Of a stretch of 64,000 bases of DNA, positions 25,144 through 45,833 are shown piece after piece. Source of the DNA: Metallibacterium scheffleri (GTDB taxonomy: Bacteria > Pseudomonadota > Gammaproteobacteria > Xanthomonadales > Rhodanobacteraceae); assembly GCF_002077135.1 (NCBI RefSeq), contig NZ_LDOS01000001.1, forward strand, positions 852,001-916,000, given 5' to 3'. A model generated the notes under the pieces. The model was not told the DNA's origin. It saw nothing but the letters and a program-made list of their open reading frames with translations, and made no database searches. Position 1 is the first letter of the stretch, and every line of letters starts with the position of its first letter. The position numbers were made by a program, and so were the translations under genes.

Positions 25144-25346
25144 CATCGGGCCACGGGCCCGGTGCGTGTCGCAGGCTATGCGATGCCCACCGGGGATGCT
25201 CGCGGTGCCGGTGCGGGTGGCCGCCTCCGCGGGGAGGACGGTCGCAGACGCGGCGCGCAAGCGTCCGCTGCGATCGTGCTCCGTTGTTCCACCCACGGCC
25301 CTGCGCGCGGGCGCAGGTCATGCCCATTTTGCCGTCGGGGAATCCC

Positions 25347-27743
25347 ATGCAATTGCAGGACACGCAAACCGCCGCCATGCAGACGGCCGCTCAGACATTT
25401 TCACTCACGCCGCCGCACGCGCCGGCGGGCATGCGCGTGACCAAGCGCAACGGCACCCACGAGGCTGTAGACCTCGGCAAGATCGTGCGCGCGGTAACCC
25501 GCGCGGCGCAGGGCCTGCACGCGGTCGAGCCGCTGCAGGTGGCGCTGAAGACCATCGGCGGCTTGTACGACGGCGCGACCACGCGCGAGCTGGACGAACT
25601 GTCGATCCGCACGGCCGCCGCGCTCACCGCCGAGGAGCCTGAATACGGCCAGCTTGCCGCACGCCTGCTGGCGCAGGTAATCGAGAAAGAGGTGCGCGGG
25701 CAGGACATCCAGTCGTTCTCGCAGGCCATCACGCGCGGCGCGCAGTTGGGCCTGATCAACACGCGGTTGAGCGGCTTCAGCACAGCCAACGCGCGCAAGC
25801 TGGACGACGCCATCGACGTGGCCGCCAGCGCGCGCTTCGAGTATTTCGGCCTGCGCACGCTGTACGACCGTTACCTGCTGCGTCATCCGGAAACGCGCCA
25901 GGTGCTGGAGACGCCGCAGTACTTTTTCATGCGCATCGCCTGCGCTCTGGGTGGCGGCGACATGGCCGAGTCGCTGCAGTTGTATCGCGCGCTGGCTGAT
26001 CTCGATTACCTGCCCAGCTCGCCCACCCTGTTCAACGCCGGCACCACGCACGAGCAGATGTCCTCGTGCTACCTGCTGGACTCGCCCGAGGATTCGCTGG
26101 AAGGCATCTACGCGCGTTACAGCGACGTCGCCCGGCTGAGCAAGTTCGCCGGCGGCATCGGCCTCGGCTACAGCCGCGTGCGCGCGCAGGGATCCTTGAT
26201 CCGCGGCACCAACGGCAAGTCCAACGGCATCGTGCCGTGGCTGAAGACGCTGGATGCCTCGGTGGCCGCGGTCAATCAGGGCGGGCGCCGCAAGGGCGCG
26301 TGCTGCGTGTACCTGGAGCCGTGGCACGCCGACATCGAGGACTTCCTCGAGCTGCGCGACAACACCGGCGACGAGGCGCGGCGCACGCACAACCTCAACC
26401 TCGCCAACTGGATCCCGGACTTGTTCATGCAGCGCGTCGAACAGGACGCCGCGTGGTCGCTGTTCGATCCGCAGCAGGTACCGCAACTGGTGGATCTGTG
26501 GGGCGAGGCGTTCACCCGCGCCTACGAGGAAGCCGAGGCGCGTGGCCTGGCCAAGCGCACCCTGCCGGCGCGCGCGCTGTACGCGCGCATGCTGAAGACC
26601 TTGGCCGAGACCGGCAACGGCTGGTTCACCTTCAAGGACCGCAGCAACGCCACCTGCAACCAGACCGCCGTGAGCGGCAACGTGGTGCATCTGTCCAACC
26701 TGTGCACCGAAATCCTCGAAGTGAATACCGAGGCCGAAACCGCGGTGTGCAACCTGGCCTCGATCAACCTCGCCCGGCATCTGGGCGAGGATGGTTTCGA
26801 TTTCGACAAGTTGGCCGTGACCGTGCGTTTGGCGGTGCGTCAGCTCGACCGCGTGATCGATCTCAACTACTACCCGATCCCCGGCACCCAGCGCAGCAAT
26901 GCGCGCTGGCGTCCGGTGGGCCTGGGCGTGATGGGTCTGCAGGACGTTTTTTTCAGGCTGCGCCTGCCGTTCGACAGTGCCGCGGCGCTGGCGCTGTCCA
27001 TGCGCATCAGCGCGGAGATCTATTTCCATGCGCTGGACACGTCGTGCGACCTGGCTGCGCAGCTTGGCGCGCACGCGGCCTTCGCCGACACCCGGGCCGC
27101 ACGCGGCGAGCTGCAGTTCGACTACTGGCCCGAGGCGCAGCCGCACGACCCCGCGCGCTGGGACGCGTTGCGCGCGCGTATCCGCGCGCACGGTCTGCGC
27201 AACAGCCTGCTCGTCGCCATCGCACCCACCGCCACCATCGCCTCGATCGCCGGCTGCTACGAATGCATCGAGCCGCAGGTGAGCAACCTGTTCAAGCGCG
27301 AGACGCTGTCCGGCGATTTCCTGGTTATCAACCGCTACCTGGTGGATGAGCTCAAGCAGCTTGGCCAGTGGACGCCGGCGATGCGCGAAGCGATCAAGCG
27401 CGCCGAGGGTTCGATCCAGGCCATCGGCGAGATCCCCGAGCCGCTGCGGCAGGTCTACCGCACGGTGTGGGAGCTGCCGCAGAAGGCGCTGATCGAGCTG
27501 GCCGCCGCGCGTGGCGCTTACGTCGACCAAAGCCAGTCGCTCAACCTGTTCATGGCCACGCCCAACCTCGGGCAGATGTCGTCGATGTACATGTACGCGT
27601 GGAAACGCGGCCTCAAAACCACCTACTACCTGCGTTCGCGCCCGGCCACGCGCATCGCGCAGACCACGGTGAGCAGCAACGCGCCGAGCCAGGCCGTGGC
27701 CTGTTCGCTGGAAAACCCGGAGCACTGCGATGCCTGCCAATGA
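25347..27743 (+). CDS. nrdA: Class I ribonucleoside-diphosphate reductase, alpha subunit
   Basis: NrdA holds the catalytic and allosteric sites that reduce ribonucleotides to deoxyribonucleotides. The 798-residue product starts with an ATP-cone (MRVTKRNGTHEAVDLGKIVR). It contains LPSSPTLFNAGTTHEQMSSC with the active-site Cys, GGIGLGYSRVRAQGS and NLCTEI around the radical Asn-Cys-Glu site. NPEHCDACQ forms the C-terminal redox CxxC that reloads the active site. The ATG at 25347 follows GGGGAA; the open frame from 25284 is longer but lacks a site. A cobalamin riboswitch precedes it, which is expected when a B12-dependent class II enzyme is encoded elsewhere. Confidence 0.96.
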   Translation: MQLQDTQTAAMQTAAQTFSLTPPHAPAGMRVTKRNGTHEAVDLGKIVRAVTRAAQGLHAVEPLQVALKTIGGLYDGATTRELDELSIRTAAALTAEEPEYGQLAARLLAQVIEKEVRGQDIQSFSQAITRGAQLGLINTRLSGFSTANARKLDDAIDVAASARFEYFGLRTLYDRYLLRHPETRQVLETPQYFFMRIACALGGGDMAESLQLYRALADLDYLPSSPTLFNAGTTHEQMSSCYLLDSPEDSLEGIYARYSDVARLSKFAGGIGLGYSRVRAQGSLIRGTNGKSNGIVPWLKTLDASVAAVNQGGRRKGACCVYLEPWHADIEDFLELRDNTGDEARRTHNLNLANWIPDLFMQRVEQDAAWSLFDPQQVPQLVDLWGEAFTRAYEEAEARGLAKRTLPARALYARMLKTLAETGNGWFTFKDRSNATCNQTAVSGNVVHLSNLCTEILEVNTEAETAVCNLASINLARHLGEDGFDFDKLAVTVRLAVRQLDRVIDLNYYPIPGTQRSNARWRPVGLGVMGLQDVFFRLRLPFDSAAALALSMRISAEIYFHALDTSCDLAAQLGAHAAFADTRAARGELQFDYWPEAQPHDPARWDALRARIRAHGLRNSLLVAIAPTATIASIAGCYECIEPQVSNLFKRETLSGDFLVINRYLVDELKQLGQWTPAMREAIKRAEGSIQAIGEIPEPLRQVYRTVWELPQKALIELAAARGAYVDQSQSLNLFMATPNLGQMSSMYMYAWKRGLKTTYYLRSRPATRIAQTTVSSNAPSQAVACSLENPEHCDACQ

Positions 27744-28800
27744 GTCCGTCCCGATGACAACGTCGCCGATCACGTCCGTGCCGGCCACCGCCGCCGCGCC
27801 GCGCCTGCTCGATCCCGGCTTCGCGCTGACCCTGCGGCCGCTGCGCTATCCGGCGTTCTACGAGATGTACCGCGCCGCGATCCGCAACACCTGGAGCGTC
27901 GAGGAAGTCGATTTTTCCAGCGACGTGACCGACCTGCGCCAGCGCATGAGCCCGGCCGAGCGCCACCTGGTCGAGCGTCTGGTGGCGTTCTTCGCCACCG
28001 GCGACTCGATCGTTTCCAACAACCTCGTGCTGAATCTGTACACGCACATCAACGCCCCCGAGGCGCGCATGTACCTCTCGCGCCAGCTCTACGAGGAAGC
28101 GCTGCACGTGCAGTTCTACCTGACCCTGCTGGACACCTATCTGCCCGATGCGCCGGCGCGCCAGGCCGCCTTTGCCGCGGTCGAGAACATTCCCTCGATC
28201 GCGCACAAGGCCGCGTTCTGCTTTCGCTGGATGGATTCGGTGCAGGGCCTGCGGCGCCTGGATACGCAGGCCCAGCGGCGCCAGTTCCTGCTCAACGTGA
28301 TCTGCTTCGCCACCTGCATCGAGGGCCTGTTTTTTTTCGCCGCTTTCGCCTACGTGTACTTCCTGCGCGCGCGCGGCCTGCTGCATGGCCTGGCCGGCGG
28401 CACCAACTGGGTGTTCCGCGACGAGTCCTGCCACATGGCCTTCGCCTTCGAGGTGATCGCCACGGTGCGCGGCGAGCAGCCCGAGCTGTTCGATGCCACA
28501 CTCGAAGCGGATGTGCGCACCATGCTGGCCGAGGCCATCGACTGCGAAGCGCAGTTCGCCGCCGATGTGCTGTCCGGCGGCGTGGCGGGTCTGGCGCCGG
28601 CGCAGATGCGCGAGTACCTGCAGTATGTGGCCGACCAGCGCCTGCGCCAGCTGGGCTATGCGGCGCAATACGGCACCGCCAATCCGTTCGCCTTCATGGA
28701 CCTGCAGGACGTGCAGGAGCTGACCAATTTCTTCGAGCGCCGCGTATCCTCGTATCAGGTCGGCGTCAGTGGCGAAGTGGTCTTCGATGCCGCCTTCTGA
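27730..28800 (+). CDS. nrdB: Class I ribonucleotide reductase, beta (radical) subunit
   Basis: The 356-residue di-iron protein makes the stable radical needed by NrdA. Metal ligands are seen in VDFSSD, YEEALHVQFY, CIEGLFFFAAF and RDESCHMAF. The Tyr four residues after the His in YEEALHVQFY is at the position of the E. coli radical Tyr122, so this looks like a tyrosyl-radical enzyme rather than a tyrosine-less class Ic type. GGAG lies 7 bp before the ATG at 27730, inside the end of nrdA (14-bp overlap); an ATG eight codons later is an alternative. Confidence 0.95.
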   Translation: MPANESVPMTTSPITSVPATAAAPRLLDPGFALTLRPLRYPAFYEMYRAAIRNTWSVEEVDFSSDVTDLRQRMSPAERHLVERLVAFFATGDSIVSNNLVLNLYTHINAPEARMYLSRQLYEEALHVQFYLTLLDTYLPDAPARQAAFAAVENIPSIAHKAAFCFRWMDSVQGLRRLDTQAQRRQFLLNVICFATCIEGLFFFAAFAYVYFLRARGLLHGLAGGTNWVFRDESCHMAFAFEVIATVRGEQPELFDATLEADVRTMLAEAIDCEAQFAADVLSGGVAGLAPAQMREYLQYVADQRLRQLGYAAQYGTANPFAFMDLQDVQELTNFFERRVSSYQVGVSGEVVFDAAF

Positions 28801-29105
28801 GGCGACCCGCGCCGGGATGGTTTGGCGCATCTCGCCAACGTCCCCGGCACGCGGTTCGGCGGCCACGCGTTAGCGTGGATGGACAACGCCGCGGCATTGC
28901 CGCCGTGTGTCGGACAGAGCCTCGGATCGAGCGCGGGTGATGGACACGCCCGCAACACGCGAGCCTGAACGAGCCGGTCACGCGCTTGCAACTATCGCGT
29001 GCGCAGAGTGTCAAAAATAATTCTGCGACTGTCGATTGATCCTGCGATTGATCCTGATTGCCTCGTTCCGAGCGCAGCATCCGGTCGCGCGTGATGGAGT
29101 ACGCC
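28801..29105. other. Intergenic region before the pentose-phosphate/glucan cluster
   Basis: No gene is seen in these 305 bp. An AT-rich patch with TCAAAAATAATTCTG at 29011-29025 is the likeliest site for the cluster's promoter. A 12-bp unit CGATTGATCCTG is repeated directly at 29033-29044 and 29045-29056, just upstream of the transketolase ribosome site, and could be a regulatory repeat. Confidence 0.5.
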
Positions 29106-31154
29106 ATGTCCGATGTCATCGATCAACTGTGCATCAACACCCTGCGTTTCCTGGCACTCGATGCCGTGCAAAAGGCCGACAGCGGCCATCCCGGCATGCC
29201 GCTGGGCGCCGCACCGATGGCTTACGTGCTGTGGACACGCTGGCTCAAGCACAACCCTGCCGATCCGCACTGGTTCGACCGTGACCGCTTCGTGCTCTCG
29301 GCAGGCCATGGCTCGGCGCTGCTGTACGGCCTGCTGCATCTGAGCGGCTACGCACTCGGTCTCGAGGATCTCAAGCAGTTCCGGCAATGGGGCAGCAGGA
29401 CGCCAGGCCATCCCGAACGCGGCCACACGCCCGGTGTCGAGGTAACCACCGGACCGCTCGGCCAGGGCATCGCCAACGCTGTCGGCATGGCCATCGCCGA
29501 GGCGCATCTGGCGGCCTGCTACAACCGCGACGGACACACGCCGATCGATCACCACACCTATGCCCTCGTCGGTGACGGCGACCTGATGGAAGGCGTCTCC
29601 GCCGAGGCCGCGTCGCTGGCCGGACACCTGCGCCTGGGCAAGCTCATCTGCCTGTACGACGACAACCACGTGACGCTTGCAGCGGGCACCGCCATCAGCT
29701 TCAGCGAGGATCGCCTGGCGCGCTTCGCGGCCTATGGCTGGCATGTGCAGCAGGTCGCGGACGGCAACGACCTCGCCGCCATCGACGCCGCGCTGCAGGC
29801 GGCGCATGCGGATACCGCGCGGCCCTCGCTGATCGCGGTGCGCACGCATATTGGCTACGGCTCGCCCGAGCAGGACAGCTTCAAGGCGCATGGCGCGCCG
29901 CTGAGCGAGGACGATGTGCGCCGCACCAAGCAGGCGCTGGGCTGGCCGCTGCAGCCGACGTTCGAGATTCCCGATGTCGCGCTGCAGACCTGGCGCCAGG
30001 CGCTGACCCGCGGTCGCGAGTCACAGGTGGCGTGGGACCGTGATTTCGCGGCTTACCTCGCCGCGCAGCCGCAGCTGGGCGCCGAGCTCCAGCGCCGCAT
30101 CGCCGGCACGCTGCCGGCGGGCTGGGATGACGCGCTGCCGCAGTTCGCGGCGGACGCGCGCGGCATCGCCACGCGTGTCGCCTCGGGCAAGGTGCTCAAC
30201 GCGCTGGCGGCGAAATTGCCCGAGTTGTTCGGTGGTTCCGCCGATCTGGATCCATCGACCAAGACCGCGCTGCTGGGCATGGGCGATTTCAACCCGCCCG
30301 CCGATCCCGGCACCGACCTGCAAGGCTCGGACAAGGCCGGCTGGAGCCACGCCGGGCGCAATCTGCACTTTGGCGTGCGCGAGCATGCCATGGGCGCCAT
30401 CGCCAACGGCATGGCCGCGCATGGCGCGATGCTGCCGTTCACCGCGACCTTCCTGATCTTCTCCGATTACATGCGTCCGCCGCTGCGCCTGGCCGCGTTG
30501 ATGCGCTTGCACGCGCTGTTCGTGTTCACCCATGACAGCCTCGCGGTGGGTGAGGACGGGCCCACGCACGAGCCGGTGGAACAACTGGCCAACCTGCGCG
30601 CGGTGCCGGGCCTGGTCGTGATCCGCCCCGGCGATGCCAACGAAAGCGCCGAGGCCTGGCGCACCGCCGTGGCGCTGCGCGATCAGCCGGTGGCGCTGGT
30701 GTTCACACGCCAGGATCTGCCGGTGCTCGATCGCACGCGCTACGCGAGTGCAGCCGGCCTGCGCCAGGGCGCCTACGTGCTGCGCGAGGCCACCGCCGGC
30801 GCGCCGCAGTTGATCCTCATCGCCAGCGGCTCCGAGGTGCACCTGATCGTCGCCGCCGCCGAGCGCCTCGAAGCACAAGGCATCGCCACGCGCTGCGTGT
30901 CCATGCCCAGCTGGGAGTTGTTCGAGGCGCAGCCGCAAGCCGTGCGCGCGGCGGTGCTGCCGCCTGGCGTGCGCGCGCGGCTGGCCGTGGAAATGGGCGT
31001 CGCGCAGGGCTGGTCGCGCTACGTCGGCGACGCCGGCGCGGTGCTCGCGGTGGATCGCTACGGCGCCTCGGCGCCGGCGGCGCGGCTGCTGCAGGAATAC
31101 GGCTTCACCGTCGACCACGTGTGCCAGCGCGCGCTGGCCCTGCTCGGTCGCTGA
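29106..31154 (+). CDS. tkt: Transketolase
   Basis: Transketolase moves two-carbon units between sugar phosphates with thiamine diphosphate. The 682-residue product carries [17 protein letters not shown] near the N terminus, [14 protein letters not shown], and the ThDP-binding [38 protein letters not shown] and a C-terminal transketolase domain follow. The start at 29106 has GGAG at good spacing; longer versions lack one. It is the first gene of the tkt-tal-pgi/glk-gnd-zwf-GH15-GT4-GH57 cluster. Confidence 0.96.
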
Positions 31155-31198
31155 ACGCCACGCGGTCCATTCGATTCGATCATCCAGGAGAGATTGCC

Positions 31199-32272
31199 GT
31201 GAACGAGATCAGTACCGCACTGGCCCAGGCCGGGCAGAGTTTCTGGCTGGACAACATCACCCGCGCGCTGCTGCGCCAGGGTGGCCTCGCCGCCTATCTC
31301 AGGGACGCCGGCATCAGCGGACTCACCTCCAATCCGACCATCTTCGAGCACGCCATCCGCAACAGCAGCGACTACGACGCGGCGATCCGCGCCGCTGGCG
31401 ACAGCAACGCCGAAGCGGTGTTCTTCGACCTGGCGCTCGACGACCTGCGTGCCGCCGCCGACGTGTTCGCGCCGGTGTATGCGCGCACGAGTGGCGCGGA
31501 CGGCTGGGTGTCGCTGGAGGTTTCCCCGCTGCTCGCCGACGATGCCGCCACCACCGTCGCCCAAGCGGTGCAACTGCACGAACGCGCGGCGCGGCCCAAT
31601 CTGTTCATCAAGGTTCCGGGTACGCACGCCGGTGTCGAGGCCATCGAAACGCTGATCCATCGTGGCGTGCCGGTCAACGTCACCCTGCTGTTCGACGCGC
31701 GCCAATACCGCGCCGCCGCCGCTGCCTACCTGCGCGGCCTCGAGCACCGCATGGACGCGGGCCTGTCGCTGGACGTGGCCTCGGTGGCCTCGGTGTTCAT
31801 CAGCCGCTGGGACGTGAAGGTGGCCGACAAGGTGCCTGCCGAGATGCGCAACAAGTTGGGTCTGGCGGTCGCCGCGCAGATCTACCGCGACTATCAGGAC
31901 GTGCTGGCCTCGGCGCGCATGCAGCGCCTGATGAATCGCGGCGCGCGCCCGCAGCGGCTGCTGTGGGCCAGCACCGGCAGCAAGGACCCCAAGGCCAGCG
32001 ACACGCTGTACGTGGACAACCTGGTTGCCCCGCTGACGATCAACACCATGCCGGAGAAAACCCTGCGGGCCGCCCTCGACCACGGTCGCCTCGACACCCC
32101 GATGGCCACCCACGGCGATGCGTACGCACCGCTGCTGGCGCGCTTCGCCGAACTGGGCTTCGAGGTCGAAGCAGTAGCGAACACCCTGCAAAAAGAGGGT
32201 GCGGCCGCATTCGTGGCCTCGTGGCATTCGCTGCTGGACAGCATCACGCAGCGCAAGGGGAAGGCGGCATGA
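31199..32272 (+). CDS. tal: Transaldolase
   Basis: The 357-residue TIM-barrel enzyme exchanges dihydroxyacetone units between sugar phosphates. It contains [13 protein letters not shown], the Schiff-base lysine in [22 protein letters not shown] and [20 protein letters not shown]. Length matches the longer transaldolase class that in some bacteria is fused to glucose-6-phosphate isomerase. Here the two are separate: the stop overlaps the next ATG (ATGA). The GTG start has AGGAGA upstream. Confidence 0.95.
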
Positions 32273-34563
32273 GTACCGCACGTCGCATCGACCCCTGGCA
32301 AGCCCTGCAAAAACACCACGCGCGCCTCGACAAACTGCATCTGCGCACGCTGTTCGAGCAGGACCCGCGGCGCGTGCAGCGCTACACGCGCGAAGCCGCC
32401 GGCTGGCGCCTGGACTACTCCAAGCACCGTATCGATGCGGCCAGCCTCGACGCCTTGTTTGAACTGGCCCGCGCGGTGCAGCTCGAAGCGCGCCGCGATG
32501 CCATGTTCAGCGGCGAAAAGGTCAACTTCACCGAACACCGCGCCGCGCTGCACACCGCGCTGCGCGCGCCGGCCGACGCGGTGATCCTGGTCGATGGCGT
32601 CAACGTGGTGCCCGAGGTGCACGCCGTGCTTGCGCAGATGCGCGCGTTCAGTGACGCGGTGCGCAGCGGTGCCTGGCGCGGGCACAGCGGCCGGCCGATC
32701 CGCAACATCGTCAACATCGGCATCGGCGGCTCCGATCTGGGCCCGGTGATGGCCCATGAGGCGCTGCGCTGGTATGGCGATCGTCGGCTAGCGCTGCGCT
32801 TCGTGTCCAACATCGACGGCACCGATTTCCAGGAAGCCGTGCGCGGCCTGCGCCCCGACGAGACGCTGTTCATCGTCGCTTCCAAGACCTTCACCACGCT
32901 GGAGACCATGACCAACGCGCACAGCGCGCGCGACTGGCTGCTGGCTTCATGCGGTGGCGACAAGCGCGCGGTGGCGCGGCATTTCGTGGCGCTGTCCACC
33001 AATCTCGACGCGGTCGAGGCCTTCGGCATCGCGCGTGCGAACGCCTTTGCCTTCTGGGACTGGGTGGGCGGTCGCTACTCGATGGACTCCGCGATCGGCC
33101 TGTCCACGATGATCGCCATTGGCGCGCCGGCGTTCATGGACATGCTGGCCGGCTTCCACGCCATGGACGAACACTTCCGCCAGGCGCCGCTTGAGCAGAA
33201 TCTGCCGGTGATTATGGGTCTGCTGAACGTCTGGTACGGCAATTTTTTCGGCAGCGAGACCGTGGCCGTGCTGCCCTACGCGCAATATCTCAAGCGCTTT
33301 CCGGCCTACCTGCAGCAGTTGACCATGGAGTCCAACGGCAAGTCGGTGCGGCGCGACGGCAAGCGCGTGGACTACACCACCGGCGCCGTGTTCTGGGGCG
33401 AGCCCGGCACCAATGGCCAGCATTCGTTCTACCAGTTGATCCACCAGGGCACGCGCCTGATCCCCTGCGACTTCATCGCATTCGCGCACGCGCTGGAGCC
33501 GCTGGGCCGGCATCAGGATCTGCTGCTGGCCAACGTCATCGCACAGGCCGAAGCGCTGGCTTTCGGCAAGAGCGCGGCGCAGGTGCGTGCCGAAGGCGCA
33601 CCGGCGGCGCTGGTGCCGCACAAGGTGTTCGAGGGCAATCGTCCTTCCAGCCTGTTGCTGGCCGACAAGCTCACCCCCGCTGCGCTGGGCAGCCTGGTGG
33701 CGTTGTACGAGCACAGCGTATTCACCCAGGCCTGCGTGTGGGACATCAACCCATTCGACCAGTGGGGCGTGGAACTCGGCAAGCAGCTGGCGCTGCGCGT
33801 GGCCGGCGAAATCGAAGCGCCGCGCAAGCGGCTGCAGCACGATGCCTCCACCAATGCGGCGATCCAGTGGTACCGGCAGGCGCGCGGTCACGCTGCGCCG
33901 CGCCGCAACGGCCATCACACCCTGGTGCTGGATGTCGGCGGCAGCCACGTCAAGGCCATGATCCAGGGGCACCGCAGCGAGATCAAGATCGTCTCCGGCC
34001 CCACGCTGACCCCGCAGCAGATGCTCAAGGATCTGCACAAGGCGCTGCGCGGCGCGGCGTTCGATCGCGTCAGCGTCGGCTTCCCGGCGCCGGTGGTGCA
34101 CGGGCGCATCCTGCACGAGCCGGCCAACCTCGGCACGGGCTGGGTGAATTTCGATTTCGAGCAGGCCTTTGCCTGCCCGGTGCGCGTGCTCAATGACGCC
34201 GCCATGCAGGCGCTGGGCAGCTACGCCGGCGGGCGCATGCTGTTTCTCGGGCTGGGCACCGGCCTCGGTTCGGCGATGATCGTCGATGGCCGTGTCGAGG
34301 CCATGGAGCTGGCGCACCTGCCGTATCGCAAGCGCAGCTACGAGTACTACGTCAGCGACGCGTACCGCGAGCAGCACAGGAAGAAGTGGCGCGACAACGT
34401 GTTCGAGATCATCGCGCTGCTGCGCAAGGGGCTGCGGCCCGAATACATCGTGCTCGGCGGCGGCAACGTCAAGCATCTGGATGAGCTGCCCGATGGTGTG
34501 CGTCGCGGCGACAACGCCAACGCCTTCAGCGGCGGTTTCCGACTCTGGGAGGATCTGGCATGA
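32269..34563 (+). CDS. pgi: Fusion of glucose-6-phosphate isomerase and ROK/polyphosphate-glucokinase-like domain
   Basis: One uninterrupted 764-codon frame. Residues 1 to about 540 are a full isomerase, with [11 protein letters not shown], the signatures [11 protein letters not shown] and [15 protein letters not shown], and [15 protein letters not shown] through [11 protein letters not shown] short linker, [10 protein letters not shown], follows. Residues about 551-764 are a ROK-type sugar kinase resembling polyphosphate glucokinases: [11 protein letters not shown] (Asp555), catalytic Asp643 in [30 protein letters not shown] and [12 protein letters not shown]. The ROK zinc motif is absent, as in polyphosphate glucokinases. 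The expected activities, not tested, are glucose to glucose-6-phosphate to fructose-6-phosphate. The phosphate donor could be ATP or polyphosphate. It overlaps tal and gnd by 4 bp each. Confidence 0.92.
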
Positions 34564-35612
34564 GCAAGACTTCGGCACGGACCAGCAAGCTGCATCTGGG
34601 ATTCGTGGGCCTCGGCCGCATGGGCCTGAACATGGCCGCGCGCCTGCATCACGGCGGCATTTCCTGCGTCGGCTACGACGCCAACCCCAAGGCGCGCGCG
34701 GCGCTGCGCAAGCTGGGCGCCACGGCCGCGGCTTCGCTGCGCGAACTGGTGACCGCGCTGCCGACGCCGCGCGCGGTGTGGCTGATGGTGCCGGCCGGCG
34801 TGGTCGACAGCGTGCTCGACGAGTTGCTGCCGCTGCTGGCCAGGGGTGATTGCGTGATCGACGGCGGCAACTCGCACTACACCGAGGACCTGCGCCGTGC
34901 CGAGCGCCTGCGCAAGCGTGGCGTCGATGCCATGGATGTCGGCGTCAGCGGCGGCGTGTGGGGTCGCGAGCGCGGCTATTGCCTGATGATCGGCGGGCCC
35001 AAACCCGCCTTCAAGCGGCTCGAACCCGTATTCGCCACGCTGGCGCCAGGCGTGGCCGCCGCGCCGCGCACCGCCGGGCGCAAGGGCAAACCGGACATGG
35101 CCGAGCAGGGCTATCTGCACTGCGGGCCCAACGGCGCCGGGCACTTCGTGAAGATGGTGCACAACGGCATCGAGTACGCGGTCATGGCGGCCTACGCCGA
35201 GGGTTTCAACGTGCTCAAGCACGCCAATGCCGGCCGCGCCGCGCAGGAATCCGATGCCGAAACCACGCCGCTGGAATATCCCGAGCACTACCGTTACGAC
35301 CTGCCGGTTGGCGAAATCTCCGAGCTGTGGCGCCGTGGCACGGTGATCGGCTCGTGGCTGCTCGACCTCACCGCCGAGGAAATGCTGCAGGACGATGAGC
35401 TGAAAGCCTACGCCGGGCGCGTGTCGGATTCCGGCGAGGGCCGCTGGACGCTGCAGGCGGCCATCGACGAGGGCGTGCCGGCGACGCAACTGGCGGCGGC
35501 GCTGTTCGCGCGCTTCTCCTCGCGCGGCAACGCGCTGTACGCCAACCAGGTGATGTCGGCGATGCGCCATGCCTTCGGCGGTCACGCGGAGAAACCGGCC
35601 GGAGGCAAATGA
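34560..35612 (+). CDS. gnd: 6-phosphogluconate dehydrogenase, decarboxylating (short type)
   Basis: This enzyme oxidises 6-phosphogluconate to ribulose-5-phosphate and CO2. The 350-residue product is the shorter GntZ/YqeC-like class rather than the 470-residue E. coli type. It has a Rossmann N terminus [20 protein letters not shown], the signature [13 protein letters not shown], and [39 protein letters not shown] carries the catalytic Lys-Asn region. Short forms often prefer NAD+; the cofactor here is not decidable by eye. It overlaps the fusion gene upstream and zwf downstream by 4 bp. Confidence 0.94.
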
Positions 35613-37072
35613 CCATGGCCGCGCAGACACTGGTGATTCTGGGTGCCACCGGCGATCTCACCCAACGCCTGCTGATGCCGGCGCTGTACCGCTTGCGCCG
35701 CGAGAACCTGACCGCGGATCTGCGTATCCTCGGTTACGCCATGGAGCCGTGGTCGCGCGCGCGCTTCCAGAGCCACATCGGCAAGGCCCTGCGCAATTTT
35801 TCCGAGGACTACGACGCGCGCAGCGCCGCCGCGTTCGTCAGGCAGCTCGACTACATCAGCGGCCAGCTCACGCCCGAGGACCTGGCGCGCATCGCCGGAC
35901 ACCTCAGCCCCGGCACGCTGTTTTACCTGGCGCTGCCACCACCGCTGTTCGGCACCGCCGCGCAGGCGCTGGGCGCGGCCGGTTTCGCGCAGGCGCCGCG
36001 CAACGGCTGGCGCCGGCTGGTGGTGGAGAAACCCTTCGGCACCGATCTGGCCAGCGCCGAGCAACTGCGCAAGCAGATGCACGCGCACTGGGACGAGGCG
36101 CAGGTGCTGCGCATCGACCACTTCCTTGGCAAGGAGGCCACGCAGAATCTCATGGTGATGCGTTTCGCCAACCGCCTGCTGGAGCCGGTGTGGAACGCGC
36201 AGCACATCGCCCAGGTGCAGATCACCTACGCCGAGACCCTCGGCGTCGAGCACCGTGCCGCCTACTACGACAAGGCCGGCGCGCTGCGTGACATGTTGCA
36301 GAACCACCTCATGCAGTTGTTCTCGCTGGCGGCGATGGAGCCGTTGTCGGCATGGGATGGCGAGGTGCTGCGCGATCACAAGGTCGAGGTGCTGCGCGCG
36401 GTCAAGCCGATCGACGCGCGCAATCTCGCCGCGCACGCGGTGCGCGGCCAGTACCGCGCCGGCCGCAGCGGGCGCAGCAAGCTGGCCGGCTACCGCAGCG
36501 AGCCCGGCATCCCGCGTGCTTCCAACACCGAAACCTTCGCCGCGCTGCGTCTCGAGATCGACAACTGGCGCTGGCAGGGCGTGCCGTTTTATCTGCGCAG
36601 CGGCAAGCGCCTGGCCGGCGAGACCTCGGAGATCGCGGTGCAATTCCGCCGCGCGGCCGGCCCGTTGCCAGGGCTGGTGCAGGCCGGCGACTCGAACTGG
36701 CTGGTGCTGCGCATCAAGCCCGAGCAGCGCATGGACCTGGAACTGACCGCCAAGCGCCCGGGGCTGAAGCTCGAAGGGCGCAGCGTCACGCTGAGCGCGC
36801 CGTATGCGGATGCCGGCGATGCGGGTTTTTCGGCCTACGAGCAATTGCTGATCGACGCGCTGGCCGGCGAACGCGCGCACTTCCTGCGCTTCGACGAGGT
36901 GGAATGGGCATGGCGCATCGTCGATCCGGTGCTGCGTGCCTGGCAGCACGGCAGCCCGGATTTCTACCCCGCCGGAGGCGAAGGCCCGGCCACGCAGGCG
37001 CGCCTGCTCGACGCCGGTCTGCGCTGGCGCAGCATCGCCGCGACCACGGCGGACGTCGCGGGTACGCCATGA
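35609..37072 (+). CDS. zwf: Glucose-6-phosphate 1-dehydrogenase
   Basis: Zwf oxidises glucose-6-phosphate to 6-phosphogluconolactone. The 487-residue product has the nucleotide motif LVILGATGDLTQRLLMPAL and the active site LRIDHFLGKEATQNLMVMRF. The structural signatures VEKPFGTDLASA and PFYLRSGKRLAG are also present. GGAGG precedes two in-frame ATGs (35609 and 35615), and either may be used. No lactonase (pgl) gene lies in the cluster, so that step must be encoded elsewhere or be spontaneous. It overlaps gnd and the glucoamylase gene by 4 bp. Confidence 0.95.
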   Translation: MTMAAQTLVILGATGDLTQRLLMPALYRLRRENLTADLRILGYAMEPWSRARFQSHIGKALRNFSEDYDARSAAAFVRQLDYISGQLTPEDLARIAGHLSPGTLFYLALPPPLFGTAAQALGAAGFAQAPRNGWRRLVVEKPFGTDLASAEQLRKQMHAHWDEAQVLRIDHFLGKEATQNLMVMRFANRLLEPVWNAQHIAQVQITYAETLGVEHRAAYYDKAGALRDMLQNHLMQLFSLAAMEPLSAWDGEVLRDHKVEVLRAVKPIDARNLAAHAVRGQYRAGRSGRSKLAGYRSEPGIPRASNTETFAALRLEIDNWRWQGVPFYLRSGKRLAGETSEIAVQFRRAAGPLPGLVQAGDSNWLVLRIKPEQRMDLELTAKRPGLKLEGRSVTLSAPYADAGDAGFSAYEQLLIDALAGERAHFLRFDEVEWAWRIVDPVLRAWQHGSPDFYPAGGEGPATQARLLDAGLRWRSIAATTADVAGTP

Positions 37073-39363
37073 ACGCGCCCGGCTGGCCGGGTATGCCGCC
37101 GGCGTGGAGCAGCAGCGCCAAGGACATCGTCGGCACCGCGCTGGGCGCAGGGCGGGTATGGTTCACGCTCGGCTACGGCATCCTCGATGAGGTGTACTGG
37201 CCTTCATGCAGCCAGCCGCAGATCCGCGACCTCGGCTTCATCGTTGCCGGCGCGGATTTCTGGAGCGAGGTCAAGCGCGAGCAGCACTACACGCTGAGCA
37301 CGCCGGAGCCGGAAGTACCGTTGCCCAAAGTGGTACACGAGCACGCGCGCTACAAGCTCGAGTTCGAGGTGCTGGCCGATCCGCTGCGCGACGTGGTGCT
37401 GATCCGCTACCGCCTGCACGGCGAGGGGCTCAGGCTGTACGCGCTGCTGGCGCCGCATCTGGGTGGCTCCGGCCACGACAACACCGCGCTGGTGCAGGCG
37501 CAGGGCCTGGCCGCGCTCAAGCAGAACGAGGCGCTGATGCTGATGGCCGACGCCGGCTTCGCGCGCGGCAGTGCCGGTTACGTGGGCGTGTCCGACGGCT
37601 GGCAGGATTTCCAGCAGCACGCTGCGATGACCTGGACACATGCCAGCGCCAGCAACGGCAACGTGGCGCTGCTGGGCGAGTTGAACGCCAGCCATGGCGT
37701 ATTGGCGCTGGCTTTCGCCAATACGCTGGAAGGCGCGCAGACGCTGGCGCGCGCGTCGCTGGCGCACGGCTACGAGTCGGCGCGGCATGGTTTCATCGAA
37801 GGCTGGAAGCAGTGGTCACGCGGCCTGCGATGCGACATCAAGGACGCGACCGCGCGCGCTGCCGTGCGCCGCGCGGCGATGGTGCTCAAGGTGCACGACG
37901 ACCGTCACCATCCTGGCGCGCTGATCGCCAGCCTCAGCATTCCCTGGGGCAATACGCGCGATGACCCGGGCGGCTACCACCTGGTGTGGGCGCGCGATGC
38001 GGTCGAAGCCGGTTTCGCCATGCTCGCCTGCGCGCACCACGAGGAAACCCGCGCGCTGCTGTCCTACCTGATCGCCACGCAGCAGGACGACGGCCACTGG
38101 GCGCAGAACTTCTACACCGATGGCCGTGCGTACTGGACCGGCGTGCAGCTCGACGAGGCTGCGCTGCCGGTGCTGCTGGCGGCCAAGCTCGATGAGCTGG
38201 GATTGCTCGATGGCCAGCGCGCCGCGGCCACGGCGATGGCGCGACGCGCGCTGCGCTTCGTCGCGCGCATCGGCCCGTTCAGCCCGCAGGACCGCTGGGA
38301 GGAAAATCCCGGCATCAATCCGTTCACCCTGGCCGCGGCCATCGCCGCGCTGGTGGCCGGCGCCGCGCACGGTTTCCTCGACGCGCGCGATGCGCGCTAC
38401 GCGCTGCAACTGGCCGACGACTGGAACACGCGCCTGGAATCGTGGGTCTACGTGCAGGACACCGGGCTGGACCGCGCACACGGCACGCGCGGCCACTACG
38501 TGCGTATCGCGCCGCCCGGGCAGGACGCGCAGCATAGCGAGGTGGCACTTAAGAATCGCGGCCGCGTGGTGGTCGCTGCGCGCGACCTGCTTGGCCTCGA
38601 ATACGTGTACCTGGTGCGCCTGGGCCTGCGCGCCGCCAACGATCCGCGCATCGCCGACACCACGCGCCTGGTCGATGCGCTGCTGCGCGTGCAAACACCC
38701 ACGGGCGCGTTTTACCGGCGCTACAACGAGGACGGTTACGGCGAGCATCACGATGGCCGCGCGTTCGACGGCAGCGGCGTCGGCCGCGCCTGGCCGTTGC
38801 TGGCCGGCGAGCGCGGCGTGCTCGCCGCGCAGGCCGGCGCGGATGCGCGCCCCTACCTCGATGCCATGCTCGCCTCGGCCAGCCTGGGCGGCATGCTGCC
38901 CGAGCAGGTCTGGGACAGCGACGCCATTCCCGCGCGCGGGCTGTTTCCAGGCCGCCCGACGGGCAGCGCCATGCCGCTGGTATGGGCGCACGGCGAGCTG
39001 ATCAAGCTGGTCATGGCGATCCAGCACCACGCGCCCGTCGAACAGCTGGCCGCGGTGGTCGCGCGCTACGCACGCGCACGCGAACCCGAGCTGCAGCTGT
39101 GGCGGCCGCAGGCGCCGGCCACGCAATGTGCCGCCGCGCGACCGATCCTGATCGAAGGTGACGCGTCGTTCGTGCTGCACATCGGCCACGACGGCTGGCA
39201 GGACGTGCGCGATATCGCCAGCACGCCCAGCGGTCTTGGCATGCACGGCGCGCTGCTGGATTGCGCGGCGCTGGGCGGGCACGACTCGATCGAATTCACG
39301 CGTCGTTTCCTGGATGCGCGCGATTGGGAAGGTCGCGACTGGCAACTCGCGCTGGTGCGCTGA
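37069..39363 (+). CDS. GH15 glucoamylase (glucan 1,4-alpha-glucosidase)
   Basis: GH15 enzymes release glucose from the non-reducing ends of alpha-glucans. The 764-residue product has an N-terminal beta-sandwich domain (about 1-270, beginning KDIVGTALGAGRVWFTLGYG) and an (alpha/alpha)6 catalytic domain. GGYHLVWARDAVEAGFAML is present, together with the general acid region QDRWEENPGINPFTL and the general base region MLPEQVWDSDAIP. No signal peptide is visible, so it likely acts inside the cell on a stored or imported glucan. It overlaps zwf by 4 bp and ends 63 bp before the glycosyltransferase. Its product, glucose, is the expected substrate of the kinase domain two genes upstream. Confidence 0.93.
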   Translation: MNAPGWPGMPPAWSSSAKDIVGTALGAGRVWFTLGYGILDEVYWPSCSQPQIRDLGFIVAGADFWSEVKREQHYTLSTPEPEVPLPKVVHEHARYKLEFEVLADPLRDVVLIRYRLHGEGLRLYALLAPHLGGSGHDNTALVQAQGLAALKQNEALMLMADAGFARGSAGYVGVSDGWQDFQQHAAMTWTHASASNGNVALLGELNASHGVLALAFANTLEGAQTLARASLAHGYESARHGFIEGWKQWSRGLRCDIKDATARAAVRRAAMVLKVHDDRHHPGALIASLSIPWGNTRDDPGGYHLVWARDAVEAGFAMLACAHHEETRALLSYLIATQQDDGHWAQNFYTDGRAYWTGVQLDEAALPVLLAAKLDELGLLDGQRAAATAMARRALRFVARIGPFSPQDRWEENPGINPFTLAAAIAALVAGAAHGFLDARDARYALQLADDWNTRLESWVYVQDTGLDRAHGTRGHYVRIAPPGQDAQHSEVALKNRGRVVVAARDLLGLEYVYLVRLGLRAANDPRIADTTRLVDALLRVQTPTGAFYRRYNEDGYGEHHDGRAFDGSGVGRAWPLLAGERGVLAAQAGADARPYLDAMLASASLGGMLPEQVWDSDAIPARGLFPGRPTGSAMPLVWAHGELIKLVMAIQHHAPVEQLAAVVARYARAREPELQLWRPQAPATQCAAARPILIEGDASFVLHIGHDGWQDVRDIASTPSGLGMHGALLDCAALGGHDSIEFTRRFLDARDWEGRDWQLALVR

Positions 39364-39426
39364 GCGCGCAGGTCGTGGCCGTGCCACGGCGTCCGGCGCC
39401 GCGGCGCAACGAGGATGGAGAACAGG

Positions 39427-40731
39427 ATGCTGCATGCCCCGCCGCTGCGGGTACTGATGCTCGGCTGGGAATACCCGCCGCGCATCGCCGGGGGTCTGGG
39501 CAAGGCCAGCCAGGGCATCGCGCGTGGTCTGGCGCAGGCCGGCGTGCAGGTGCTGTTCGTGCTGCCGCGCTACGACCGTGCCGTGCAGGCGCCGGGCTTG
39601 CGCGTGGCGGGTATCGCGGCATGGTTGCGGCACGCGCGCGCGCCAGGTGCAGCGGCCATGCCGCCACCGGCACGCATGCAGCGTCTGGCGGTGGATGCGC
39701 GCCTGCGGCCCTATGCGGCGCTGGCGCCGGCGCCGCACACGCGCATGCCCGCGGCGGCCGATCGCGTGGATGCCGACGCAGCGCTGTATGGCGGCGACCT
39801 CGCCAGCGAGGTGCAGCGCTATGCGCGGCGGGTGCGCGCGCTGGGCATGGCTGTCGAGGCGGACCTGATCCATGCCCACGACTGGATGAGTTTCCCCGCC
39901 GCGCTGGCGCTGGCCGCGGCGCGCGGCTGGCCGCTGTGCGTGCACCTGCATTCCACCGAATACGATCGCAGCGGCGCTGGCGCCGATGCGCGCATCGTGG
40001 CGATCGAGCGTGAAGCCTGCACGCGCGCCGCGCGCGTGTTCGCGGTCAGCGAGTACACGCGCGATGTGCTGATCGAGCGCTACGGCATCGCTGCCGACAA
40101 GATCGAGGTGATCTACAACGCGCCGGATGCGCCTGTGCCCGCGCCGCTCGCGCGGGCGCCGCTGGCCATGGCGCAGCGGCCGCCGTGGGTGGTGTTTCTG
40201 GGGCGCCTGGCGTTCCAGAAAGGCCCCGATCATTTCCTGCGCGCGGCTGCCGAAGTGGCGCGGCATGCGCCGCATGCGCGCTTCCTGGTGTGCGGTGATG
40301 GCGGCATGCGCGCGCAGTTGCAGCAACTGGCGCTGGATCTTGGTCTGCGCGAACACGTCGAATTTCGCGGCTTTCTGGGCGCCCGCGAAGTCACGCGCGT
40401 GCTGGGCCAGGCGCGCCTGCTGGTGATGCCCAGCGTGTCGGAGCCGTTCGGACTGGTGGCGCTGGAGGCGCTGGGCGCCGGCACCTCGGTGATCCTGTCG
40501 CGGCAATCGGGCGTGCGCGAGGTGCTCAGCCCCAGTCTGCAGGCTGATTTCTGGGATCACGAGAAGCTCGCCGACCAGATGCTGGCCGTGCTGCGCTGGC
40601 CCGAGCTGGCGCAGCAACTGGTCGATGATGGCCGCGCGCAGCTCGCGGGCCTGTCGTGGGCGCGCTCGGCGCGGAACATCCGCAGGGCCTACGCCGAGAT
40701 CCTCGCGGCGCAGCCGGGCGTGCGGCCATGA
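39427..40731 (+). CDS. GT4 glycosyltransferase, glycogen-synthase-like
   Basis: The 434-residue GT-B enzyme has an N-terminal domain starting LRVLMLGWEYPPRIAGGLGK, a feature of starch and glycogen synthases and related GT4 enzymes, and HAHDWMSFPAALAL. The C-terminal GT4 domain includes VVFLGRLAFQKGPDHFLRAA and the E-x7-E motif SEPFGLVALEALGAG. The start at 39427 has GGAG 6 bp upstream; the earlier ATG at 39415 does not. Paired with a GH57 enzyme it may build an alpha-glucan or trehalose-like product. The acceptor and donor (UDP- or ADP-glucose) cannot be told from sequence alone. Confidence 0.88.
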   Translation: MLHAPPLRVLMLGWEYPPRIAGGLGKASQGIARGLAQAGVQVLFVLPRYDRAVQAPGLRVAGIAAWLRHARAPGAAAMPPPARMQRLAVDARLRPYAALAPAPHTRMPAAADRVDADAALYGGDLASEVQRYARRVRALGMAVEADLIHAHDWMSFPAALALAAARGWPLCVHLHSTEYDRSGAGADARIVAIEREACTRAARVFAVSEYTRDVLIERYGIAADKIEVIYNAPDAPVPAPLARAPLAMAQRPPWVVFLGRLAFQKGPDHFLRAAAEVARHAPHARFLVCGDGGMRAQLQQLALDLGLREHVEFRGFLGAREVTRVLGQARLLVMPSVSEPFGLVALEALGAGTSVILSRQSGVREVLSPSLQADFWDHEKLADQMLAVLRWPELAQQLVDDGRAQLAGLSWARSARNIRRAYAEILAAQPGVRP

Positions 40732-41942
40732 GCCTCGACATCTGCATCTACTTCCAGGTGCACCAGCCGTGGCGCCTGCGCCGCTATACCTACAAGGACA
40801 TCGGCCGCGCGCACGATTACTTCGACGATACGGCCAATGCCGCCATCCTGCGCCGCGTGGCCGAGCACTGCTATCTGCCGATGAACGCGCTGCTGCTGGA
40901 CGCGATCCGCACGCATGCGCCGCATTTCCGCGTGAGCTTTTCCATCACCACCACGGCACTGCAGCAGATGGCGTTGTGGGCGCCGCACGTGCTGCTGTCG
41001 TTTCGCGAGCTGCTGGCGACCGGCGCGGTCGAGCTGCTCGGCGAAACCTCGCATCACAGTCTGGCCGCGCTGCATGACGCCGATGAATTCGCCGCGCAGG
41101 TGCGCCTGCACCGGGCGAGCTGCGCGCGCTGGCTGGGCGCGTGCGGCGGCGGTTTTCGCAATACCGAGCTGATCACCTGCAACGCCATGCTCGAGCAGGT
41201 GGCGGGCATGGGTTTCGAGAGCGTCTGCATCGAAGGTGCCGAGCGCGTGCTGCACGGACGCGCCGCCACGCGCGCGTATCGATTTTCCACCGCGCCCAGG
41301 CTGGTGGCGTTGCCGCGCCACTACCGGCTCAGCGACGACATCGCGTTCCGGTTTTCCGACCGGCACTGGAACGCGTGGCCACTGACCGCCGCGCGTTATG
41401 CCGACTGGCTGCAGGGCGAGGCCGACGCGCACGTCGCGGCGGGCGGCTGCCTCGGTCTGTACATGGATTACGAAACCTTCGGTGAGCACCAGTGGGCCGC
41501 GACCGGCATTTTCGACTTCATGCATGCGCTGCCGGGTGAGCTGTTGCGGCGCGGCTGCTTTCGCTTCGTCACGCCAGCGCAGGCCGCGTGTGCCGTGCCG
41601 GCGGATGCCGAACGTCTGGATGTACCACAGCCGTTGTCCTGGGCCGACCAGGAGCGCGATACCTCCGCATGGAATGGCAATGCCATCCAGCGCGTGGCGC
41701 TGGCGCGCTGCTATGCCATGGCCGGCGCGCTGCAACAGGCGCCTGGCGCGGTTGCGGCGACGCTGCGGGAAGACTGGCGGCGCCTGCAAACCAGCGATCA
41801 TTTCTACTACATGGCCACCAAGCATCGCAGCGATGGCGATGTGCACCAATACTTCAGCCCTTATGCATCACCCTACGACGCCCACATCAACTACATGAAT
41901 GTCATGGATGACCTGGCGGAGCGTTGCGGCCAGCGCCGGTGA
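40728..41942 (+). CDS. GH57 family glycoside hydrolase (alpha-amylase/glucanotransferase-like)
   Basis: The 404-residue product begins LDICIYFQVHQPWRLRRYTY, the hallmark His-Gln-Pro start of GH57. The likely catalytic nucleophile is Glu in VELLGETSHHSLAAL and the acid/base Asp is in LGLYMDYETFGEHQ. GH57 includes alpha-amylases, 4-alpha-glucanotransferases and branching enzymes; the 400-residue length fits the amylase subgroup better than the longer branching enzymes. No signal peptide is present. It overlaps the glycosyltransferase gene by 4 bp, so the pair is likely co-translated. It is the last gene of the cluster. Confidence 0.9.
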   Translation: MSLDICIYFQVHQPWRLRRYTYKDIGRAHDYFDDTANAAILRRVAEHCYLPMNALLLDAIRTHAPHFRVSFSITTTALQQMALWAPHVLLSFRELLATGAVELLGETSHHSLAALHDADEFAAQVRLHRASCARWLGACGGGFRNTELITCNAMLEQVAGMGFESVCIEGAERVLHGRAATRAYRFSTAPRLVALPRHYRLSDDIAFRFSDRHWNAWPLTAARYADWLQGEADAHVAAGGCLGLYMDYETFGEHQWAATGIFDFMHALPGELLRRGCFRFVTPAQAACAVPADAERLDVPQPLSWADQERDTSAWNGNAIQRVALARCYAMAGALQQAPGAVAATLREDWRRLQTSDHFYYMATKHRSDGDVHQYFSPYASPYDAHINYMNVMDDLAERCGQRR

Positions 41943-42242
41943 TCGCCGCGCCGCATGCGATGCAGCAAGCCCTGCGTGCTGGGTGCGCGGGTAGCCGTGC
42001 ATGGGCATTGCATTCGCCGACATCGTGCTTGTCAGCGCGTTGATGCAATAACGCATGTCGCGGCGAGGGGTTCAGTTTTCTACTGATTGAGTATAAATTC
42101 CATCGGGACGGCATGCGCCGCCGCTGCGATCTGGAGATGGCATGCACGATCATGGCCTGCCGGTGCGTTTGCTGCGGTCCGCGCATGGCCTGCACATGAC
42201 GATTGGCGTGAACCTGCGCGGCGCGTGGCAACGCCATCGCGC
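41943..42242. other. Intergenic region between the glucan cluster and the GGDEF-EAL gene
   Basis: No gene is seen in these 300 bp. An AT-rich patch with TATAAA at 42092-42097 and TTCAGT at 42071-42076 (15-bp spacing) could be a weak promoter for the downstream gene. No clear terminator for the glucan cluster was found. Confidence 0.4.
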
Positions 42243-45200: not shown

Positions 45201-45833
45201 CCGCGCGGACCCGATGGCCTGCGCAGCCCGGATGTGCTGGTGCCGTTGCTGGAGGAGTCTGGTCTGATCCTGCCGGTGGGGCGCTGGGTATTGAACGAGG
45301 CCTGCAGGCGTCAGCATCAGTTGCAGGGCATGGCGGCGCATGGCTGCAAGGTGGCGCTGAATGTCTCCACGCAGCAATTGATGCTGGGCGATTTAGTGGG
45401 CGAGGTGCGCGACGCGCTGGCGGTCAGCGGCGCCGAACCGGCATTGCTGGAACTCGAAATCACCGAGAGCGCGCTGATGGCCGATCCGGGCAAGGCCGAG
45501 GCGACCCTGCAGCAACTCAAGCAATTGGGCCTGGGCATCGTCATCGACGACTTCGGCACCGGCTATTCCAGTCTCGGCTATCTGCACCGGTTTCCGGTGG
45601 ACAAGCTCAAGATCGACCGCTCATTCGTCAGCGACGTGCTCACTGACCGCGACGATGCGCTGATCTGCGCATCGATCATCCAGCTCGCCCACAATCTTGG
45701 CCTGAGCGTGGTTGCCGAGGGTGTCGAAACCGAGGCGCAGTGGCGCTGGCTGGCCGCGCGCGGTTGCGAGCAGATGCAGGGGTATCACTTCGCGCGCCCG
45801 GTGCCGTTCGCGGATGCGCAAGCCGACGACTGA
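42243..45833 (+). CDS. Multi-PAS sensor GGDEF-EAL protein (c-di-GMP turnover)
   Basis: The 1,196-residue product has one N-terminal membrane helix (about 10-27) and then a series of PAS-type sensor domains. The last PAS (about 665-785) is LOV-like, with VYVNPAFTRITGYPAETVIG and GRNARFLYRDD. The LOV cysteine is replaced by Ala702. The diguanylate cyclase domain follows with intact RMGGDEFVAL (Gly855-Phe859). The C-terminal EAL domain has ELL in place of EAL (Glu981), and keeps LNVSTQQL, LEITESAL, IDDFGTGYSSLGYL, KIDRSFV and VVAEGVET. Both synthesis and breakdown of c-di-GMP look possible. The ATG at 42243 begins just before the membrane helix, without a strong ribosome site. Confidence 0.92.
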   Translation: MNLAKPDIVASVGALLLAAFAILWLSRLWLRARARLRAQTHELQRLVDAQKMAGIGYWEYDIALGYLVWSDATLALFGIDRDAFDGSLADFIRRVHPEDQPRLVALREHSLHTGAALDVRYRIARGDGGIRTLDEHGELHTRSDGRRVMRGTVRDVSALVEAGRREQQQMAQYRYLFDRNPMPMAVYARDTLSILAVNDAAIEMAGYTRTEMLALRASDMLAMEERARFARHIASSSPDHADVGVYAMQRKDAAPLRCRVFGQDILFDGHSARMVMLLDVTAAELARAALEYSEARLRLVARASHDAIWDFDIVAGTLWWNEGYTALFGYDAAMGTPHLADWTARIHADDRARVESSFAAALRGEQEQWQEDYRYRHMDGRFLDVRDRGYILRDAAGHAVRMVGGMHDRSREANAQRELQQRVENYRVLVEQMPVPLLVLQDGHVRMANTAAVLLLKGNTLDSLGAMTVEDLFEPAAAAACRAPAVTPTQTLECRVRRLDGSTFDGQLQIADFRGSEVGGVQVLMRDLGAERRRVAAEQERVAFFRLSADGFGILDERMSIIQANAALRRQLGLAEESATVPLADYIEDAHCTRMRAAVLDLPQGAASEAFDCRLRGRMPEIWLELAFVRARSDTWYMVARDISRQVRAEAEARLLQRAVEAAENGVVISDARGSDLPLVYVNPAFTRITGYPAETVIGRNARFLYRDDTDQPGLRELDQALADGNPASVVVRNYRKDGSLFWNRLRIAPVRDAHGLSHWVGIQQDISEERRAEERLQQQALSDELTGLPNRRALLLGANAMLLREPLALVHLGLDQFKLINDALGHASGDELLRKLGARLRGALPDAILLARMGGDEFVALVPRASTQLQDVLERISDGVRQPIEVQGTLQQLNCSIGVALAPEHGDNSEALMRSADAAMHEAKRLGRNRSVTYSADLHDVARQRLAVISRLRGSDPGRELALHYQTIHDGVSGAIVGVELLLRWPRGPDGLRSPDVLVPLLEESGLILPVGRWVLNEACRRQHQLQGMAAHGCKVALNVSTQQLMLGDLVGEVRDALAVSGAEPALLELEITESALMADPGKAEATLQQLKQLGLGIVIDDFGTGYSSLGYLHRFPVDKLKIDRSFVSDVLTDRDDALICASIIQLAHNLGLSVVAEGVETEAQWRWLAARGCEQMQGYHFARPVPFADAQADD

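Follow-up and report, generated by a model that had tools for sequence, protein, structure and literature searches.

A single gene of Metallibacterium scheffleri joins a complete glucose-6-phosphate isomerase (PGI) to a sugar kinase of the ROK family, and this PGI-ROK fusion is real and conserved. The gene lies on the forward strand of the 64,000 nucleotides analysed here (assembly GCF_002077135.1, contig NZ_LDOS01000001.1, positions 852,001 to 916,000), the whole of which is called the window. Judged from its sequence and its neighbours, the protein is probably a bifunctional enzyme of the pentose phosphate pathway, in which an active PGI and an active ROK-type glucose kinase, connected by a flexible linker, would both supply glucose 6-phosphate to the dehydrogenases Zwf and Gnd. 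Few enzymes have been studied as thoroughly as PGI and glucose kinases, yet their natural fusion was found here in 36 bacterial genomes.

The fusion gene, its distribution and its conservation

The gene and its parts are the following.
32269..34563, +: fusion gene PGI-ROK, 764 codons plus stop; open frame, domain matches and the same fusion in 36 loci
32269..33888, +: PGI half, residues 1-540; the genome's only PF00342 match
33889..33921, +: linker, about residues 541-551; differs between loci in both sequence and length, with a predicted local distance difference test score (pLDDT) <50 at residues 542-547
33922..34560, +: ROK kinase half, about residues 552-764
34195..34197, +: codon for Asp643, the residue predicted to act as catalytic base of the kinase; unchanged across 32 aligned fusions and 23 aligned ROK sequences

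Translation of 32269-34563 (+) gave 764 residues with zero internal stops. Pfam placed the PGI domain at residues 49-532 (698.8 bits, E 4.4e-210; PF00342 cut-off 22) and the ROK domain at residues 553-676 (PF00480; 35 bits, gathering score 22.9), and with 820.2 bits against a cut-off of 492 the PGI half is a full member of NF001211. A preliminary description, made from the letters of this DNA, had read one uninterrupted 764-codon frame joining a complete Pgi to a full ROK domain, and both translation and Pfam bear it out. The kinase motifs that it named are present (DVGGSHVK, and D643 with its surrounding residues), leaving the kinase signature intact, and the linker, put there at about 10 residues, measures 12 in the window protein and 10-20 across 30 loci. 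The open frame continues upstream of 32269, where the ATG overlaps the transaldolase stop as ATGA and aligns with the start of relatives' proteins. The fusion is the genome's only PGI match and its only ROK match.

A search with the kinase half across 233 genomes of the window's family, Rhodanobacteraceae, gave matches in 36 of them, 31 at 56-100% identity and 5 at 39-40%. All 31 close matches stand in one open frame with PGI and belong to genera g1 (6), g13 (4), g18 (16), g23 (4) and g24 (1). The kinase and PGI are separate genes in the three distant loci that were read (G015, G023 and G121; G120 and G122 were left out). At the level of the order, 38 of 398 sampled genomes matched at E 1e-10 or better, and the 14 matches outside the family lie in frames of 235-365 residues, which could not accommodate the fusion. 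The class sample yielded nine matches in 369 genomes; besides that of the window, the frame is fused only in G544, the other seven being 230-365 residues long. In the order of G544, matches were found in 5 of 19 genomes, all from a single genus and all fused. In total, 36 fused loci were collected, 31 from family genomes and 5 from another order of Gammaproteobacteria. The preliminary description had raised the question of restriction to one clade: the fusion occupies five genera of the family, but the second order carries it beyond a single family. One fused relative, L021, is a Rhodanobacter sp. metagenome assembly that by its coordinates is the same contig as G012.

Assembly error is ruled out by 36 in-frame loci from 36 assemblies, and the reading frame across the PGI/ROK junction, which the preliminary description had singled out for checking in other assemblies, is open in these loci. 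Seven of them are cut off on the 5' side by the edge of the contig or locus, but even there PGI codons precede ROK in the same frame.

Mean column identity across 32 aligned fusions is 81%, with no variation at the positions predicted to serve catalysis or sugar binding in either half. In the PGI half these include E354, H385, K505 and R269, which we take to be the counterparts of E357, H388, K518 and R272 of rabbit PGI. In the kinase half they include the DxGG loop, the NDA with the catalytic Asp, the GTGxG loop and the ExxH sugar site, which are hallmarks of ROK proteins; Asp643 is presumably the catalytic base, by analogy with ROK kinases. The same motifs are invariant in 23 aligned ROK sequences, except for the His of ExxH, kept in at least 90%. 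Loss of glucose-binding residues in a ROK alignment had been named as a finding that would refute the preliminary reading, and the predicted sugar-binding positions are retained. Nonsynonymous rates (dN) of 0.02-0.2 compare with synonymous rates (dS) of 0.2-1.0 in both halves for 11 of 12 fusion pairs tested; dN is higher in the kinase half than in the PGI half in all 11, while the two members of the remaining pair hardly differ. The invariant active-site positions, together with dN below dS, speak against fusion of a broken kinase.

The kinase family and known fusions

The C-terminal 224 residues match PDB 3LM2 over nearly its whole length (phmmer, E 3.7e-73) and 1WOQ, a polyphosphate/ATP-glucomannokinase (phmmer, E 2.7e-13). 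Foldseek returned PGI alone among the 50 matches listed, the kinase matches coming from a separate query. In the ROK tree, fused and unfused cassette kinases form one clade with 100/100 support, which holds 52 of the 63 rows (36 fused, 16 unfused) and lies far from the polyphosphate glucokinases; 3LM2 is absent from this tree and is linked to the clade through the phmmer match. On sequence grounds, then, the kinase half is a member of a separate, uncharacterised 3LM2-type family. PDB 3LM2 itself, a 'putative kinase' of Agrobacterium, stands alone, whereas the window kinase is fused to PGI; a literature search found no paper on it.

The nearest characterised kinases are the polyphosphate glucokinases (NF045942; PDB 1WOQ; Anabaena All1371), which are of similar length, and the resemblance to these claimed by the preliminary description was confirmed, being greater than that to other ROK kinases. 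Unlike them, the kinase half scores 62 bits against NF045942, below the cut-off of 250, and falls outside their clade. The relatives L135 (338.2 bits) and L129 (364.4 bits) pass this model. The NF045942 cut-off is missed by a wide margin and the clade is its own, so polyphosphate is only a possible donor. By its name, 1WOQ, the nearest characterised kinase in sequence, takes polyphosphate or ATP; the fusion may use either, and sequence cannot settle which. A polyphosphate kinase is encoded in the genome. According to part of one report, the All1371 polyphosphate glucokinase of Anabaena is connected, in heterocysts, with the glucose 6-phosphate that enters the oxidative pentose phosphate pathway (PMC4252912), a physiological parallel only.

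Both domains are known, and no published description of their combination was found in the literature, as searched by the titles and abstract openings of the papers listed, with most subscription journals outside the search; nor did that search reveal an already characterised protein of PGI-glucokinase architecture, of which the preliminary description had known none. To the full NF001211 member at its N-terminus the fusion adds a C-terminal kinase. Another bacterial fusion of PGI with a pentose-phosphate enzyme, going by the model name, is the bifunctional transaldolase/PGI (NF007080, PRK09533); in the window, by contrast, PGI shares its chain with a kinase while transaldolase has a gene of its own upstream, and the fusion scores 62.1 bits against the NF007080 cut-off of 712. 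An epimerase is joined to a ROK kinase in UDP-GlcNAc 2-epimerase/ManNAc kinase (PDB 2YHW, 3EO3, by their names), which acts on other sugars with an isomerising domain other than that of PGI-ROK. The G6PD-6PGL fusions of Plasmodium and Giardia also join pentose-phosphate enzymes (excerpts of PMC4470864; title of PMC10819308), though for another reaction pair and in eukaryotes rather than bacteria. A glucokinase-GPI fusion in diplomonads was considered and rejected, since a passage of PMC3916229 lists the two enzymes separately. Polyphosphate and ROK glucokinases are covered by a glycolysis review, the portion of which consulted mentions no PGI-ROK fusion (PMC12965863). Of the two halves, PGI alone reaches a curated NCBI cut-off, so automatic annotation likely names the fusion simply 'glucose-6-phosphate isomerase'.

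Operon context and predicted role

In the window, the fusion is surrounded by these genes.
29058..31154, +: transketolase (tkt); TIGR00232 858.3 bits; true start perhaps ATG 29094 or 29106
31121..32272, +: transaldolase (tal), start uncertain; PF00923 243.3 bits, NF002881 431.7 bits; stop overlaps the ATG of the fusion
34560..35612, +: 6-phosphogluconate dehydrogenase (gnd); TIGR00872 386.1 bits, NF007161 427.1 bits; the genome's only close copy
35609..37072, +: glucose-6-phosphate dehydrogenase (zwf); TIGR00871 500.6 bits; one of two genome matches above cut-off
37069..39363, +: GH15 glucoamylase/glucodextranase-like enzyme; PF09137, PF00723
39415..40731, +: GT4-type glycosyltransferase; PF00534, PF08323; matches a starch-synthase model too
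40728..41942, +: GH57 glycoside hydrolase; PF03065; start ATG 40728 chosen for its overlap with the GT4 stop

The operon order, all on the + strand, is tkt, tal, PGI-ROK, gnd, zwf, GH15, GT4, GH57, with ATGA overlaps at tal/fusion, fusion/gnd, gnd/zwf and zwf/GH15. The GH15 protein has no obvious signal peptide, as seen from the hydropathy of its first residues only. The run of GH15, GT4 and GH57 after zwf (37069-41942, +) looks like a set for intracellular alpha-glucan synthesis and breakdown tied to pentose phosphate genes. Elsewhere in the genome, the second zwf stands beside a Glk-type glucokinase gene (contig C2:276821-278682), suggesting a separate, ordinary glucose route.

Neighbours were counted in fused loci with enough flanking DNA on the relevant side. 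Upstream, tal is present in 24 of 29; downstream, gnd is found in 32 of 36, the four misses being the g13 loci, and zwf in 23 of 28. Unfused cassette kinases occur in comparable settings. The order is GH15-gnd-zwf-ROK in Martelella, Pantoea and Allorhizobium, and zwf-ROK-GH15 in Deinococcus gobiensis. Five Burkholderiaceae-type loci read gnd-zwf-x-ROK-GH15, where x, tested in L022 only, belongs there to the 6-phosphogluconolactonase family, and L121 reads tkt-tal-gnd-zwf-lactonase-ROK. In L120 the kinase adjoins PGI as a separate gene, in reverse order. Further cassette genes gave no match in the stretches covered for L122 (3.7 kb) and L125 (8.8 kb), which belong to the clade of the cassette kinases, or in those covered for the more distant L080, L124, L126, L127 and L129. 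It was also observed that the unfused 3LM2-type kinases (L056-L059, L022-L026, L121) accompany zwf and mostly gnd and GH15, and that their cassettes reside on plasmids of plant-associated bacteria and Deinococcus as well as on Burkholderiaceae-type contigs. In G054 (L079 9591-15089) the GH15, gnd and zwf matches are each split in two, suggesting decay or sequencing errors. The fusion points to an uncharacterised 3LM2-type family of probable glucose kinases in Proteobacteria and Deinococcus, whose genes often lie near those for glucoamylase, Zwf and Gnd.

Because gnd and zwf follow the fusion, both halves would supply glucose 6-phosphate. The kinase half would form it from glucose, which in the window could be freed inside the cell from alpha-glucan by the GH15 enzyme, while the PGI half would form it from fructose 6-phosphate returned by transketolase and transaldolase. 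The neighbouring Zwf and Gnd would then consume glucose 6-phosphate from both halves, which should favour repeated turns of the oxidative pathway and a supply of reduced NADP or NAD. As the genome's only PGI, this half should also serve ordinary glycolysis or gluconeogenesis. The main effect of the fusion would be to set both sources of glucose 6-phosphate at equal amounts in one place, so that it is predicted to be a natural scaffold joining them, and its benefit may lie in a constant ratio and close proximity of the two halves more than in channelling.

Several observations weigh against this role. The genome also encodes two Glk-type glucokinases, so simple use of glucose does not require the fusion kinase. 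The window genes scanned include no lactonase, ribose-phosphate isomerase or epimerase, and the operon is therefore not a self-contained cycle. The preliminary description had linked the fusion to a co-transcribed glucoamylase; the gene does stand in the operon of the window, but the link fails as a general rule, with GH15 downstream in 8 of 25 fused loci against gnd in 32 of 36. Likewise, tkt is upstream in 2 of 29, and the four g13 loci have no tal, gnd or zwf nearby (three with at least 6 kb on both sides, one on a short contig). The predicted structure gave no sign of a fixed contact between the halves (predicted template modelling score 0.70, linker of low confidence). On the kinase side, L066 falls just below the PF00480 cut-off at 21.9 bits, which the other five of six fused relatives scored reach, and CxCGxxGC, the motif of canonical zinc-binding ROK kinases, occurs in 0 of 36 fused proteins and is also absent from the two polyphosphate glucokinases aligned.

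Nevertheless, the other explanations fare worse. The preliminary description had proposed a route from glucose to fructose 6-phosphate, whereas the neighbours gnd and zwf point to glucose 6-phosphate supply instead. A forward glycolytic pair, passing glucose 6-phosphate from kinase to isomerase, would combine consecutive reactions and could draw glucose from the window GH15, but it is unlikely: gnd and zwf, downstream in most fused loci, use glucose 6-phosphate or its product, the upstream tal can yield fructose 6-phosphate, the PGI reaction is reversible, no phosphofructokinase was seen among the window genes scanned, and the predicted structure has no joint site. Fructose or mannose as the kinase substrate, with the isomerase half handling the product, is quite unlikely. 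ROK kinases do differ in their sugar, 1WOQ is annotated as a glucomannokinase and fructose kinase activity would feed PGI directly; still, what the cassettes examined contain is an alpha-glucan hydrolase and zwf, with no fructose or mannose gene seen there.

The ROK half might alternatively have lost kinase activity and act as a glucose sensor or regulator of the PGI half, given that ROK proteins include repressors and that the genome has other glucokinases. The invariance in 32 fusions of the predicted catalytic Asp, phosphate loops and sugar-binding positions, and the unfused relatives in catabolic cassettes, make this very unlikely. Production of two proteins from one frame by internal initiation near the linker is extremely unlikely. 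Many loci have a GTG a few residues before the DxGG motif, but an ATG lies within the 25 codons before it in only 2 of 36 loci, four of the 36 have no ATG, GTG or TTG there, and the only candidate in the window is a GTG two codons ahead of it, where a start would cut into the first kinase strand of the model. As an extension of the pentose-phosphate role, stored glucan and polyphosphate could be turned into reducing power without ATP through the kinase, PGI, Zwf and Gnd, for example under stress or at wake-up, though we give such a polyphosphate-driven generator a small chance.

Origin of the fusion and adjacent genes

A quick PGI tree was built from 55 rows (48 different, some genes entered twice), of which 33 are fused; the fused loci L021, L101 and L133, with little PGI sequence, were omitted. 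The 33 fused rows fall on one side of a branch with support 92, and the unfused PGI of G018 is their sister, with support 100 for the group of both. The deep part of this tree is unsure owing to two rows with very long branches. The PGI tree fits a single origin of the fusion. The free ROK tree splits the fused rows, with two changes, a single change occurring in 0% of its bootstrap trees, and a ROK tree holding them together is 6.0 log units better than the free tree, with a p-value of 0.61 in the approximately unbiased test (p-AU). Several independent fusions were considered and set aside, as the PGI tree places the 33 fused rows together and the constrained ROK tree is also not rejected. 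Genus g1 has a fused PGI in some species and an unfused PGI of another clade in others, and in the PGI tree the fused genes from the second order occupy two positions; both patterns suggest transfer.

G018 contains two PGI genes (L073 8368-9996 and 14690-16294), the unfused sister of the fused type, adjoining a urease accessory gene, and a distant one. Behind the sister gene, which is followed by a UreD gene, a search for a kinase remnant gave no significant match in the stretch examined. On either side of the operon in the window, ribonucleotide reductase large and small subunit genes (25284-28800, +) stand just upstream of transketolase, as they do in G009, and a 1248-residue PAS-GGDEF-EAL protein (42087-45833, +) comes after GH57.
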